A stretch of DNA of 5,651 nt from positions 1 to 5,651 of the forward strand of contig JACPXK010000095.1 of NCBI GenBank assembly GCA_016196565.1, read 5' to 3'. The notes beneath the pieces were generated by a model that was not told the DNA's origin, made no database searches, and saw nothing but the letters and a program-made list of their open reading frames with translations. Every line of letters begins with the position of its first letter. The first letter of the stretch is position 1. This DNA comes from Candidatus Omnitrophota bacterium (GTDB taxonomy: Bacteria > Omnitrophota > Omnitrophia > Omnitrophales > Aquincolibacteriaceae). Positions 54-5,651 of this stretch are shown here, one piece after another. A program made the translations under genes and the position numbers.

Positions 54-119
54 GTCATCCTAAAGGGATTATTTCTATTCGTCATCCTGAGGGAGGCCGA
101 AGGCCGACCGAAGGATCTC
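54..119 (+). repeat. Composite palindromic repeat module, copy 1 (family A)
   Basis: A degenerate short unit (54-80, beginning GTCATCCT) is followed directly by a full unit (81-119, beginning GTCATCCTGAGG and ending AAGGATCTC). The full unit folds on the + strand. The outer arms are ATCCT 84-88 and AGGAT 112-116. A GA/GA internal loop follows (89-90 with 110-111), then GG/CC (91-92 with 108-109), a second GA/GA loop (93-94 with 106-107), and GGCC/GGCC (95-98 with 102-105) around a GAA loop. The module overlaps the 3' end of the GIY-YIG gene, whose stop codon (75-77) lies in the degenerate unit. A second module in the same orientation is at 451-510. Confidence 0.88.
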
Positions 120-383
120 ATAGCCGAGATTCTTTGATTCTACTAATTTGAGTTTCTTTTTTCTTGTCCAACCTTTGATTTGCTTTTCTCGAGTAATTGC
201 ATCTACTATTGAATCAAAAATCTCATAATAGACAAGTTTTGAAGCATTATATTTATTCGTAAAGCCGGGCACTAGCTTTTGTTTATGCTCATAGACTCTT
301 TTAATCAGAGCATTGGTAACACCGGTATAAAGAACACTGTTGTTCTTATTCGTCATGAGATAAACGTAACCACTTCTTGACAT
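75..383 (-). CDS. Small GIY-YIG nuclease-domain protein (YhbQ/UPF0213-like), C-terminus encoded by a repeat
   Basis: This 102-residue protein is a single GIY-YIG domain, the fold used by UvrC and homing endonucleases to cut DNA with one metal ion. Visible family marks are the GIY-equivalent VYLM (residues 7-10), the YIG-equivalent YTG (19-21), a likely catalytic Arg29 followed by His33 (KRVYEHK), and Glu66 (REKQIKGW), the expected metal ligand. The length fits stand-alone members, whose natural substrates are mostly unknown. The ATG at 381-383 is the only plausible start, because an in-frame TAG lies upstream inside the 394-433 repeat. No Shine-Dalgarno or promoter is evident. Residues 89-101 (EILRSAFGLPQDD) are the translation of the repeat at 81-119, and the stop is in the adjoining degenerate unit, so the tail is probably not part of the fold. 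The gene is AT-rich (17 G+C in 60 bases at 181-240, against 34 in 60 at 601-660 in guaA), consistent with transfer or mobility. DNA cleavage is inferred from the family. Confidence 0.9.
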   Translation of the reverse strand: MSRSGYVYLMTNKNNSVLYTGVTNALIKRVYEHKQKLVPGFTNKYNASKLVYYEIFDSIVDAITREKQIKGWTRKKKLKLVESKNLGYEILRSAFGLPQDDE

Positions 384-450: not shown

Positions 451-510
451 GTCATCCTGAAAGGACTATCTCTATCCGTCATCCTGAGGGCCAAAGGCCC
501 GAAGGATCTC
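451..510 (+). repeat. Composite palindromic repeat module, copy 3 (family A), at the guaA 3' end
   Basis: The layout matches 54-119: a 27-base degenerate unit (451-477) followed by a full unit (478-510). The two degenerate units match at 22 of 27 positions by my alignment, and all five differences are transitions. The full unit folds as ATCCT/AGGAT (481-485 with 503-507), a GA/GA internal loop (486-487 with 501-502), and GGGCC/GGCCC (488-492 with 496-500) around an AAA loop. It ends 5 bases short of the guaA stop codon, so it would form a hairpin at the 3' end of the guaA message. No T-tract follows on the guaA side, so it is not a typical intrinsic terminator. Confidence 0.88.
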
Positions 511-2074: not shown

Positions 2075-3235
2075 TTACTTCCCCATTCCAACTCTTTGCG
2101 CGGCCTGGAAGAGTTTGCCTTCCGTGCGTATGGCCGGAGCGATCACAATTTCAGCAAGTTGAAGTTCGCGAATATTTTGGGCGCCGACATTTCCCATGCA
2201 AGTGCGCAAAGCACCGACAAGATTTTGCGTTCCGTCATCGAGTTTGGCGGGGCCATAAAGAATTTCTTCCAGCGTTCCGCTCGTGCCGACACGAATTCTC
2301 GTACCGCGCGGTAAGTTGGCATGCGGCGTCGCCATTCCCCAGTGGAATCCTTTTCCCGGCGCTTCTTGGGCGCGGGCAAAAGCCGAACCCACCATCACAG
2401 CATCAGCTCCGCAGGCAAAGGCCTTGCAAATATCGCCGCCCGTGGACATTCCGCCGTCTCCGATAATTCCGACATAGCGTCCGCTCTTCTTATAATAGAC
2501 CTCGCGCGCAGCGGCACAATCGGCAATGGAGGTCACTTGAGGAACACCGAGCCCAAGAACACCCCGGGTGGTGCAGGCCGAGCCCGGCCCGATTCCCACC
2601 AAAATGGCGGAACAGCCGGCTTCCATTAATTCCAGGGCAATTTTATAGGTCACACAATTGCCGAGAATCACGGGGATTTTCATGGATTTGCAGAATTTTT
2701 TGAAATCCACCACTTTATAGGAAGAAGAAATATGGCGTACGGTGGTCACCGTGGATTGGACGACAAAAACATCAGCACCCGCCTCTTGAGCAATCGCCCC
2801 GTATTTTTCTGCTTTCTGCGGAATCGAACTTACTGCACAAGGGACTTTCGCTTTTTTAATTTCACGAATGCGCTGGCCGATTAATTTTTCTTTGATGGGC
2901 TCAACATAAAGTTTTTGAACCAGCTGCGTGGCTTTTTCCGGCGAGGCTTTGGCAATATCCGCCAGAATTTCTTGGTAATTTTCATAGCGGGTATAAATTC
3001 CTTCGAGATTGAGAACCGCAAGACCGCCGAGTTTTCCCATCGACACCGCAAACTTTGGGTCCACCACACCGTCCATGGCGGAGGCAAGGAACGGGATTTC
3101 GTAAACTTGTTTGCCGATTTTAAATTGAATATCAACTTCATCGGGATTAATCGTGACATCTCCGGGGACTAAAGCGATTTCATCAAATCCGTAAGCGCGG
3201 CGGGCCTTACGGTCACGGCCGATAAATTCAGACAT
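2075..3235 (-). CDS. guaB3: GuaB3-family IMP dehydrogenase-related protein
   Basis: This 386-residue TIM-barrel protein belongs to the IMP dehydrogenase/GMP reductase superfamily. IMP dehydrogenase oxidises IMP to XMP with NAD+, the substrate for the GuaA encoded next. The active-site loop [11 protein letters not shown] (214-224) contains the expected catalytic Cys221. A phosphate-binding segment IIGDGGM (257-263), GSAFARA (283-289) and [12 protein letters not shown] (341-352) are also superfamily marks. The opening [20 protein letters not shown] (5-24), the [20 protein letters not shown] stretch (309-328) and the ending TEGK...GMGK are diagnostic of the CBS-less GuaB3 group, which is about 370-390 residues long, against roughly 490 for canonical GuaB. 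No Bateman (paired CBS) domain is present, so allosteric control through such domains is not expected. GuaB3 proteins were long annotated only as IMPDH-related. Direct linkage to guaA here favours a real IMPDH role. The ATG has a strong GGAGG 9 bases upstream and its own promoter. Confidence 0.94.
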
Positions 3236-3244
3236 GGGAAAAAA

Positions 3245-3249
3245 CCTCC
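3245..3249 (-). promoter_or_regulatory. Shine-Dalgarno of guaB3
   Basis: GGAGG on the minus strand, 9 bases before the guaB3 ATG (3233-3235). It is the best ribosome-binding site in the window and fixes the guaB3 start. The guaA and GIY-YIG starts have nothing comparable. Confidence 0.85.
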
Positions 3250-3263
3250 GGAAAAATACGAGT

Positions 3264-3331
3264 TGTCATCCCCGAACACTTTAGTCGGGGATCATTGGAA
3301 AGATTCCCGCCAAAATCGTGCGGGAATGACA
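3264..3331. repeat. Compound two-hairpin repeat (family B) in the guaB3 leader
   Basis: The element is bounded by TGTCAT (3264-3269) and ATGACA (3326-3331). Inside are two hairpins: ATCCCCGA/TCGGGGAT (3268-3275 with 3285-3292) and ATTCCCGC/GCGGGAAT (3303-3310 with 3320-3327), each with a 9-base loop. The right half read on the minus strand aligns with the left half read on the + strand, so the element is two copies of one unit facing each other. The copies differ by compensating changes: C-G against T-A, and A-T against C-G. It lies between the predicted transcription start and the Shine-Dalgarno of guaB3, so it should be transcribed. It resembles a dispersed REP/BIME-type element, and an effect on guaB3 expression is possible but unproven. 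Confidence 0.85.
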
Positions 3332-3384
3332 GATGATGTTTGAAAATCGAGGATAAAAGGCGCGATGGTGTTTCCATTTGCGGT

Positions 3385-3414
3385 ATCATACAAAAACACC
3401 CTTGGGATTGTCAA
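3385..3414 (-). promoter_or_regulatory. Sigma70-type promoter for guaB3-guaA
   Basis: On the minus strand, TTGACA (3409-3414) is followed after 18 bases by TATGAT (3385-3390). The -35 is a perfect consensus match and the -10 differs at one position. The predicted start is near 3378, giving a leader of about 143 bases before guaB3. The -35 lies 15 bases beyond the stop codon of the upstream 737-codon gene, so the guanine operon has its own promoter even though the upstream gene points the same way. Read-through from upstream is possible, since no clear terminator separates them. Confidence 0.75.
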
Positions 3415-3417
3415 TCC
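3405..3417. promoter_or_regulatory. Dyad covering the -35 box, possible operator
   Basis: GGATTGTCAATCC is a perfect 6-1-6 inverted repeat that fully contains the -35 hexamer of the guaB3 promoter. A dyad there could be a repressor site. Alternatively it is the stem of a weak terminator for the upstream gene, because a TTTTT run follows about 10 bases later on the minus strand. It does not match the E. coli PurR consensus. Regulatory function is inferred from position only. Confidence 0.35.
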
Positions 3418-3429
3418 TTCAATGCGCGG

Positions 3430-5643
3430 TTATGCGGCGCGGCGAATTTCGCTGCGGGATTTCATGGCAGCTTCTATAAGAGCAGCCCAGCGCTCCGGTC
3501 CTGCTAAGGAAGCACCGGTATAAACTGTCATTTGCAGGCCATTCCAGGGAGTGAGAAGGCGCTCGGCCACGAGATAAGCTGTTAAATCCCGTATCTCAAC
3601 GGCAGCAGAAGGCGCGGAGGCCATGATTAGATTAGGAATGGTATTGTCATTGGGAAGAATTCCAGGATCCCCGATAAAACCGGCCGGGATTTTTCCATTT
3701 CTGACACGCGTAGAAAGTTCGGCCCATAAATTCGCAGGCGCTCTTTCAATTGCCAGATTTTTTAAATTAGCTCCGTAATGTTCGCGGGCATATTGATCGA
3801 TTTGGTGTTTTAAATTGGCGATTTCATTGTCTGAACCATCCACCCAAAGAAAAAGTTTTAATTTTTTGTCCGCAGCGGCAAGGCCGATGGTTTTTTCATA
3901 ATCCGCCATTTTGGCAGAAACCGGCCCGCGATAATCATAAATCACGCGCGCCACAGCTGGCGATTGGACCTGCTCAGCATAAGCCAGCGGTTCCACTCCC
4001 CAGCTATGCAAAATTCGCCTTCTCCAGTTCGCGCCGGCAATTTTTCCGATTAATTTATCAACACCCCAAAATCTTCTTGGTAAAGTCTTTTGGCGCACAG
4101 CGCCAAAACTTCTCTGAGATTCCTTAGTAACTTCGCGCCTTTCCCAGGAAGTTAATGCAGCGCTACTTCCTTCCGACAGCATACGCATTTCAGAGCTCGC
4201 CCTCCGCTTCTTTAAAGCTTCCTTGGCTGATCCATGAATTGCGGTCAATTGCTTTTCAAAAATGGGGAGATGAGAAGGAACCGTATAAACAAGCCTCTGT
4301 AATGGCTGCTGCGAAAGCGGTTGATTAAGATCACCTGCAATCGTTTCCAGGTCCTGGCGATTTAAGTGCTCAAAATAAGTTTTAAAAAACAATCTGACCA
4401 GGCGTTGATATTCTTCAAAAGAAATTGCTTCGCCTGAATTTGAATCCCTGAGACCTGCATATATTTTATGAAAGCTTCGCAACTTGATCTCCACACCATA
4501 CCATCCTTGCTGAGAAAAATACGGCTGCGAGGGTAAAGCCCAAGGTATATTCTCCTCATTGTCTGCTTCCTGGCCGAATGTGAGATCTTGAAAATGAAAA
4601 GTGTCTTTTTGTATTTTAATATTGGCCTTTTGCGCTTCTCCAAGGGCCCAATTGACTGCTATATATTCAAACATTTCGATTGGAGACAAGATTTTCCCAC
4701 CCCGCAATTCACCGGTGAAATTTAACGTTTCTGAAAGCTGGCGTCGTGTCCGCGTAAGCCCTGGATCTGTTAAAAGAATTTGAGGAAGTTTCGAAATACG
4801 CCCCGGAGGGCCTGTGAAAAGATTAAAAACAAGCATGGGAGAACTTTCGGCAGGCATCGATTCTGTGATTTCGATCCAGGAAACGGCTGAGTTGTCGGCT
4901 TTAGGAAAATGAAAGAAGCTGAAAATTTGATCTTCATCGACATAATGCTCTCCCTTACCACTAGTACCAAATTTTTCATCCAATAAATCCCATCCGTCGA
5001 AGCCTTGTTTCGCAGTAGGGATCGCCAAAAGTTTTCGGGCGCCCAAAAATTGAACGAAGGGTCCGCCGATTTGGTTTCTCGCAGTTCCCTGATTACCGGC
5101 CTCTAATCGATTAAAAAACTCGTGGGCTATTCTTGCCTCTTTGAGATTGACAAGACCGATAAAAGGATAAAGCGCATTTTCACGCTGCTGGAATGAAAAA
5201 CCTTGTGAGTTTTGTTCTTGTAAAAATTGTCCCGAACCTTTGACCCCGAGCCACAATCCATGGCCCAACGGGAAATAAGCTTGGCGGCCGTTCGCAACGG
5301 CGTTTTGAAGATTATTGACGTTATCATATCGATCCGTCACTCCCACAAGGATATGATGACCTTCTTGCAAAGCACGTACTGCATCTTCGGCTGTGCCAAT
5401 AGAAAACCCGCTGAATTTGTCGAGAAAATCATCCCCTGGGATTCCCTTGGTCTTTAATAAATTCAAAACGCCCGTATTCAAATATTCGAGCGGCCCTAAA
5501 TATTTTGAAGGTTCTTTTTCCGCGGAAATTTGAAGCAAAAATGCCGGCCGCAGTGAGCGATCATCCTCCAATGCTGCTACGATTTCCGGCGTAACAACTG
5601 CCGCAAGCTCCCGAGGAATATTGCTTCGTTCCAAATATTCCAT
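3430..5643 (-). CDS. Large two-part protein of unknown function, possible distant SelO/kinase-like N-terminal half
   Basis: I do not recognise this protein. From the first visible ATG it has 737 residues, but only 8 bases lie upstream, the frame is open through them (codons for P and V) and no Shine-Dalgarno is visible, so it may start outside the window. No signal peptide or membrane segment is apparent. Residues 1 to about 470 look globular. They contain WLGVKGSGQF (131-140), LKEARIAHEFFNRL (167-180), LVFNLFTGPPGRISKLP (271-287) and TFHFQDLTFGQEADNEEN (348-365). In that order they recall the Lys, Glu and two metal-binding positions of the SelO/protein-kinase fold (candidates K135, E169, D353, D361), a tentative pattern match only. 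A charged Ser/Arg/Lys-rich linker (about 471-550) follows, then a C-terminal alpha/beta-like region (about 560-725) with LKLFLWVDGSDNE (595-607) and AGFIGDPGILPND (654-666). SSEMR (483-487) and RSEIR (730-734) are related short motifs. It is unlikely to belong to the guanine operon, which has its own promoter. Confidence 0.8.
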   Translation of the reverse strand: MEYLERSNIPRELAAVVTPEIVAALEDDRSLRPAFLLQISAEKEPSKYLGPLEYLNTGVLNLLKTKGIPGDDFLDKFSGFSIGTAEDAVRALQEGHHILVGVTDRYDNVNNLQNAVANGRQAYFPLGHGLWLGVKGSGQFLQEQNSQGFSFQQRENALYPFIGLVNLKEARIAHEFFNRLEAGNQGTARNQIGGPFVQFLGARKLLAIPTAKQGFDGWDLLDEKFGTSGKGEHYVDEDQIFSFFHFPKADNSAVSWIEITESMPAESSPMLVFNLFTGPPGRISKLPQILLTDPGLTRTRRQLSETLNFTGELRGGKILSPIEMFEYIAVNWALGEAQKANIKIQKDTFHFQDLTFGQEADNEENIPWALPSQPYFSQQGWYGVEIKLRSFHKIYAGLRDSNSGEAISFEEYQRLVRLFFKTYFEHLNRQDLETIAGDLNQPLSQQPLQRLVYTVPSHLPIFEKQLTAIHGSAKEALKKRRASSEMRMLSEGSSAALTSWERREVTKESQRSFGAVRQKTLPRRFWGVDKLIGKIAGANWRRRILHSWGVEPLAYAEQVQSPAVARVIYDYRGPVSAKMADYEKTIGLAAADKKLKLFLWVDGSDNEIANLKHQIDQYAREHYGANLKNLAIERAPANLWAELSTRVRNGKIPAGFIGDPGILPNDNTIPNLIMASAPSAAVEIRDLTAYLVAERLLTPWNGLQMTVYTGASLAGPERWAALIEAAMKSRSEIRRAA

Positions 5644-5651
5644 GACCGGAT

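Follow-up and report, generated by a model that had tools for sequence, protein, structure and literature searches.

The window, by which we mean the whole 5,651-nt stretch of contig JACPXK010000095.1 from a Candidatus Omnitrophota bacterium, carries a small GIY-YIG nuclease gene, guaA, guaB and a 739-residue open reading frame, together with several copies of a palindromic repeat (Table 1). No Pfam family matched the 739-residue product at E ≤ 0.001, and PF01541 was the sole match at this threshold for the 102-residue nuclease (E = 3.2 × 10−17; 63 bits against a cut-off of 22.6). In addition to the domain itself, the protein has the conserved tyrosine, arginine and glutamate residues of the GIY-YIG superfamily (Tyr8, Tyr19, Arg29 and Glu54), as well as His33 and Asn85, as judged by conservation in 50 sequences, across which Asn85 is invariant. 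In the AlphaFold2 model (mean pLDDT 84.4), Lys70 to Arg74 form the turn between helices 59–70 and 74–84. The best match in the PDB, both by sequence (E = 4 × 10−4) and by structure search, is 1zg2, which is UPF0213 protein BH0048, and Slx1 comes next; the gene is likely to be one of a subfamily encoding single-domain GIY-YIG nucleases, whose nearest solved relative is UPF0213/Slx1-like. A search for a phage origin among 50,697 phage records gave no match at E ≤ 10−5.

Table 1. Genes and repeat elements of the window
Feature	Position	Strand	Basis or remark
Degenerate short copy of the element, just past the stop codon	54–69	+	Direct repeat D1
GIY-YIG nuclease gene, 102 aa	75–383	−	ORF and PF01541
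3' repeat element, CT class, GTCATCCTGAGG...CCGAAGGATCTC	81–119	+	Supplies the 13 residues that precede the final Glu
Codons of Lys70-Gly71-Trp72-Thr73-Arg74, the loop covarying with repeat class	162–176	−	Covariation and AlphaFold2 model
5' repeat element, CT class, 13 nt ahead of the start codon	397–433	−	Opposite in orientation to the 3' element
Degenerate short copy upstream of the GIY-YIG gene	451–466	+	Direct repeat D1
Additional full copy, between the GIY-YIG gene and guaA	478–510	+	Hairpin z = −2.91
guaA	516–2054	−	ORF and Pfam
guaB/IMPDH	2075–3235	−	ORF and Pfam
739-aa ORF, 5' end open at the window end	3430–5649	−	

The nuclease gene sits between two GTCAT-footed palindromes of inverted orientation, and the repeat copies that an earlier, sequence-only reading had noticed just upstream of it correspond to three entries of the table. 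The 3' element has an outer stem of ATCCT/AGGAT and an innermost pairing of GGCC/GGCC; as a single fold it is unexceptional (z = −0.85), and its significance, therefore, rests on recurrence. A CGTC tag is present at positions 54, 81, 451 and 478.

The same reading had located the end of the protein within the repeat, which is indeed the case: the C-terminus is EILRSAFGLPQDDE, and the 13 codons for EILRSAFGLPQDD lie inside the palindromic element, with the last Glu codon and the TAG (75–80) in the spacer between this element and the degenerate copy. Homologues end in NPxWxDLY, whereas the window protein follows the reading frame of the repeat after about residue 88, indicating that the element has replaced the conserved end in this copy. 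The further suggestion that repeat-like tails recur among small GIY-YIG proteins is borne out weakly, and for a minority: an element is overlapped by at least 3 nt in 15 entries, from a subfamily total of 236 genes. As a trait of many such proteins it does not stand, and we reject the tail as a family hallmark: inspection by eye of the last 40 residues found the query to be alone among the 120 best homologues in having one. The tail is an occasional by-product, arising where a repeat adjoins the 3' end of the gene or intrudes upon it; a − element follows within 200 nt downstream in 166 cases, and the gene overlaps it in 14 of these, stops 0–2 nt short of it in 26 and 3–20 nt short in 64.

A discovery set of 80 public-genome loci from many phyla was assembled from the best 80 of 304 retained homologues, and in these the stop codon is very often followed by a palindrome that ends in ATGAC. 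Using a strict definition of the element (a GTCAT foot and a stem of at least 5 bp), one lies within 150 nt downstream of 57 of 81 GIY-YIG genes, compared with 125 of the 944 other ORFs that these loci contain. The sequence-only reading had proposed a specific pairing of nuclease and repeat, reminiscent of RAYT transposases and REP elements, and had named as fatal to it the finding that repeats adjoin GIY-YIG genes no more often than other genes. The outcome is the opposite: canonical elements lie within 100 nt on one side or the other of 66/76 homologues (those with enough flanking sequence), as against 75/767 control ORFs (a set that excludes those lying up to 400 nt from GIY-YIG genes); elements are found on both sides for 42/76 homologues, as against 3/767 controls. 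Likewise, in validation loci that were fetched later, 130 of 150 genes have an element no more than 200 nt from one end or the other. This adjacency supports a specific pairing over chance, and is suggestive of a functional one. It does not extend to all relatives: a divergent GIY-YIG subfamily (12 entries, L197 and L199–L208, with profile scores of 54–78) has one non-canonical element in total, and all 18 low-scoring entries pooled, fragments of the main subfamily included, have an element in 4 of the 16 with enough flank. No clear canonical element is seen in the examined flanks of two Rhizobium loci (L271 and L272).

The orientation of the repeats is also distinctive. At a distance from the GIY-YIG genes, neighbouring repeats most often form an inverted + − pair (31/68; median spacer 19 nt). 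A gene lying beside such a pair would be expected to have a − element upstream and a + element downstream, and the control ORFs fit this expectation (22:11 and 30:15). For the GIY-YIG genes the bias is reversed, with + favoured upstream (44:11) and − favoured downstream (39:14), and this puts the gene inside a repeat pair. Where elements are found on both sides, the order is + − for 34/53 genes in the discovery set and 74/110 in the validation set.

Both the repeats and the proteins fall into classes. The relevant part of the protein is a loop of residues 71–74 (GWTR in the window), which follows a conserved REKQIK helix and varies together with the bases immediately internal to the GTCAT foot: [AG]GSR is found with TGCGA (class A), GW[T/L/V]R.KK with YCTGA (class B, or CT class, which includes the window), [WYF]RR.KK with N[T/C]CGA (the third class) and W.R.WK with perfect stems of at least 7 bp and a short loop (class D). 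The rules GS, GWT, GWRR/RWRR, AGNR and W.R.WK were noted down ahead of fetching the validation loci, and after the validation table had been viewed the CT class was widened to accept L, V, K, I, G and S after the tryptophan, and the third class to accept Y and F. For the nearest element on each side in the validation loci, the three rules entered as predictions scored as follows: GS went with n2n3 = GC in 62/68 cases, WT with CT in 4/6, and W.R.WK with a stem of at least 7 bp in 71/81. Overall, the class of the protein is that of the nearest classifiable element for 65/68 discovery genes, 114/124 scored validation genes and the window gene (43 of the 236 subfamily genes being left unscored); shuffling of the validation set gave a mean of 35.8 matches and a maximum of 58 in 20,000 trials.

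The comparison was also made inside single genomes. In 21 genomes that encode at least two protein classes, the nearest repeat is of the gene's own class for 46 of 49 genes (within-genome shuffles: mean 22.3, maximum 40), which removes genome composition and host kinship as explanations; at one locus (L058), two GIY-YIG genes some 0.7 kb from each other are accompanied by different repeat types, each gene by its own. We also counted independent pairs on the starred (well-supported) branches of a FastTree phylogeny from which the motif columns had been left out, although such pairs are few in number. For class A there are five, all changing in the expected direction (median p = 0.0625); for class B, seven (3.9 expected, 0 opposite, 3.1 no change); for class C, three (0.7 expected, 2.3 no change); and for class D, two, both in the expected direction. 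Since these are too few, we rely on the within-genome test for covariation.

Elements of classes A to C conform to GTCATNNN-GA-inner-GA(A)-N'N'N'AT. Their inner parts comprise 324 distinct sequences, and of the 268 that are long enough 90 can form a 3-bp inner stem, compared with 5.5 in shuffles. The commonest inner hairpin across all loci is GCGAAGC (21 copies), a sequence known as an unusually stable DNA mini-hairpin; this, and the GA/GA(A) interruption, suggest that it is the folded single strand that matters. Among 175 class D elements, selected for the foot, an 8-bp stem and a loop of 3–5 nt, the tag is CGTC or TGTC in 165, and a CCA tail is present in 81.

These last features are those of the CGTC-tagged REPs, a group described in a 2013 survey as families CGTC-1 to 4 and equated there with dRS3 and with the Rickettsia repeats RPE-4 and RPE-6 (PMC3733652). 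Class D elements share with them the tag, an AT-first 8-bp stem, a short loop (4–5 nt in the published definition) and, often, the CCA tail, and inverted pairs are frequent in both (PMC3733652). The foot is also common to classes A to C, the window's elements among them, but these differ in having a 5-bp outer stem, the GA/GA(A) interruption and a variable inner hairpin; accordingly, the CT-class elements of the window do not have the continuous 8–9 bp stem of a CGTC-tagged REP, their 5-bp outer stem being interrupted before the inner stem. A gonococcal homologue is flanked on both sides by ATTCCC...GGGAAT palindromes, which, from their sequence, we take for dRS3. The repeats paired with these nucleases are, or resemble, CGTC-tagged REPs. 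The latter were said to 'apparently lack a dedicated transposase', and the agent of their spread was left open; no gene is tied to the repeats in the survey, from which the term 'GIY' is absent (PMC3733652). A literature search that took in neither preprints nor most subscription journals returned, among the matches listed, no paper linking such a nuclease to CGTC repeats. A search of plasmids matched 33 records, including those of Azospirillum lipoferum, Sinorhizobium meliloti and Novosphingobium aromaticivorans, all three of which are named as carriers of CGTC repeats in the same survey (PMC3733652).

The distribution of the nuclease is patchy, with a match at E ≤ 10−10 in 53/145 Omnitrophota and 75/148 Bacteroidota genomes, and the abundance of the repeats follows it. 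Within the sample of 145 Omnitrophota genomes, the median number of matching repeats is 41.5, 18 and 12.5 where a class A, B or D protein is present, and 1, 1 and 0 where it is absent (p = 10−9, 3 × 10−6 and 2 × 10−12, respectively); these counts are based on the fetched proteins, a few weak or contig-end matches being left out, and for class D on a pattern restricted to the CCCG stem. The difference persists when the comparison is with genomes that have other classes only (p = 0.0025 for A, 0.047 for B and 5 × 10−6 for D), and backward-pattern controls gave almost no counts. There are exceptions in both directions: at least 20 copies occur without a detected protein of the class in 18 (A), 9 (B) and 3 (D) Omnitrophota genomes, and fewer than 5 copies of the searched pattern occur despite such a protein in 1, 4 and 4 genomes, respectively; draft assemblies or past activity may account for these. 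Three genomes (G103, G104 and G127) stand out, with 165, 117 and 63 copies of one repeat class and no matching GIY-YIG protein detected, for which incomplete assembly, gene loss or another driver may be responsible.

Comparison of relatives identified two sites at which the gene and its repeats are jointly present or absent. On plasmid AZO_p3 of A. lipoferum 4B, the gene lies between sufB and sufC with one repeat pair on each side, so that it separates two pairs and is not enclosed by one. The sufB-sufC arrangement is found with neither gene nor repeats in A. oryzae, A. ramasamyi, Azospirillum sp. B510 and A. argentinense. Of the five elements found on scanning 99.8 kb around the A. lipoferum gene, four are those beside it, and the homologous 99.8 kb contains one weak match in A. 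oryzae and two in B510, of other sequence. In Shinella, strains WSC3-e, WSD5-1 and HZN7 carry the gene between the same two neighbours, with repeats on both sides at the WSC3-e locus, and both gene and repeats are absent from H4-D48 and S. sumterensis. Sinorhizobium K101 was considered as a further empty site and rejected, as the gene is present there. Both intergenic regions are too diverged among relatives for insertion ends or target duplications to be read. At one Shinella locus (L276, approximately 2800–3450), the outer repeats that flank the gene have spacers resembling inverted copies of one another, so that what was inserted may be a larger composite of inverted repeats.

The co-location, orientation, class covariation, co-occurrence, conserved nuclease residues and joint presence or absence at two sites observed here probably reflect a partnership of the RAYT/REP kind built on an unrelated nuclease, in which each member of the subfamily pairs with its own class of GTCAT-footed repeat; binding, cutting and mobility we infer. 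The usual unit would be REP(+)-gene-REP(−), with the gene inside an inverted repeat pair. The enzyme would bind the repeat in its folded or cruciform state and cut it at or near the GTCAT foot; the bases immediately internal to that foot would presumably be read by the turn that links the last two helices of the protein. Host repair and replication might then copy or move the repeat pair, with or without the gene, such that the many REP pairs elsewhere in these genomes would be non-autonomous derivatives. GIY-YIG enzymes are hydrolytic, so that strand joining would need host functions.

Three other explanations must be weighed against this partnership. REPs follow many genes as terminators or other 3' elements (strict elements lie downstream of the control ORFs also, at the frequency given above), and small genes might merely lie in repeat-rich intergenic DNA. 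It is very improbable that this accounts for the data, given the class match inside single genomes, the inverted elements on both sides of the gene and the near absence of elements from the divergent subfamily; we reject association by chance or through terminators alone, which adjacency and class matching in the main refute. Rather more credible, albeit still unlikely, is that the repeats are those of the host, or of some other element, and that a selfish nuclease gene invades the spacer of pre-existing REP pairs by gene conversion: GIY-YIG is a homing-endonuclease fold, class-matched recognition would be expected, and the orientation data put the gene where the short spacer of a pair would be. 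However, the relatives at the two empty sites examined lack the repeats as well as the gene, which disfavours homing into pre-existing pairs, and the number of matching repeats rises with the gene, which is not required of a pure target.

The nuclease might, instead, be a resident host enzyme that trims, resolves or regulates at REP hairpins or cruciforms without moving them, a function in keeping with its nearest folds, namely, UPF0213 protein BH0048 and Slx1, a branched-DNA nuclease; moreover, covariation shows recognition rather than mobility. We consider this improbable, as its patchy distribution, the occurrence of several protein classes within one genome and the joint presence or absence of gene and repeats at a site all argue against a host function.

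Of the known systems, RAYT/TnpA-REP with its GTAG-tagged REPs and REPINs (REPtrons) is the closest in its working: a small nuclease gene lies beside its own class of tagged palindrome, the repeats form inverted pairs and reach many copies, and the GIY-YIG genes described here are flanked class by class in the same manner. However, RAYT is an HUH/Y1 transposase, and the window enzyme is a GIY-YIG protein by both Pfam and structure search, with neither the HUH motif nor the catalytic tyrosine of that group; the two folds are unrelated. The RAYT repeats are tagged GTAG, whereas the foot here is GTCAT, in the window and, by definition of the scan, in all scanned elements. Lacking the HUH/Y1 enzyme and the GTAG tag, these units are not RAYT/REPtron members, despite their similar working. 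The coexistence of irregular-stem and perfect-stem repeats is a further likeness, to TnpA-REP groups 2 and 3 (PMC8266576). Stand-alone UPF0213 and prokaryotic Slx1-like proteins are alike in size and fold, but divergent members recovered in the same search are without the repeats; the Slx1 group was, moreover, recorded as having 'no C-terminal Asn' in a 2006 survey (PMC1564403), whereas Asn85 is invariant here, although we do not assume its equivalence to the Asn position of UvrC and I-TevI. The I-TevI type of homing endonuclease has a similar catalytic domain and offers a precedent for possible selfish mobility, but the 102-residue window protein has no intron, intein or extra DNA-binding domain, and it is the gene that is flanked by repeats.

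On balance, we lean towards a broader reading, in which REP-giyyig-REP units are unrecognised pan-bacterial minimal mobile elements: a nuclease of ~95 residues, with a readable protein–DNA code in a single helix–helix turn, would move hairpin-ended DNA, and it would have given rise, as non-autonomous products, to the CGTC-tagged REPs, to dRS3, to some of the Rickettsia RPEs and to the GTCATTGCGA/GTCATYCTGA repeats found in many phyla. The CGTC-tagged repeats gain a named candidate for their missing spreading engine. The analysis also predicts which protein pairs with which repeat, and offers a compact recognition code that is testable with short oligonucleotides. If this reading is true, the strategy of combining REPs with a nuclease has arisen around two nuclease folds that are unrelated, and a likely role can be given to a common gene whose annotation usually goes no further than 'GIY-YIG nuclease family protein'.

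Two minor observations may be added. On a Planktothrix agardhii plasmid (L269, 2989–3273), a GIY-YIG gene lies amid repeats between an MmeI-type restriction-modification gene and the DISARM gene drmA. In the window itself, the interval between guaB and the 739-residue ORF (3265–3330) contains an inverted pair of perfect-stem repeats of the class D type, GTCATCCCCG.. and ..CGGGAATGAC (z = −3.31), from which the recognition code predicts a GIY-YIG gene of the W.R.WK type elsewhere in this genome.
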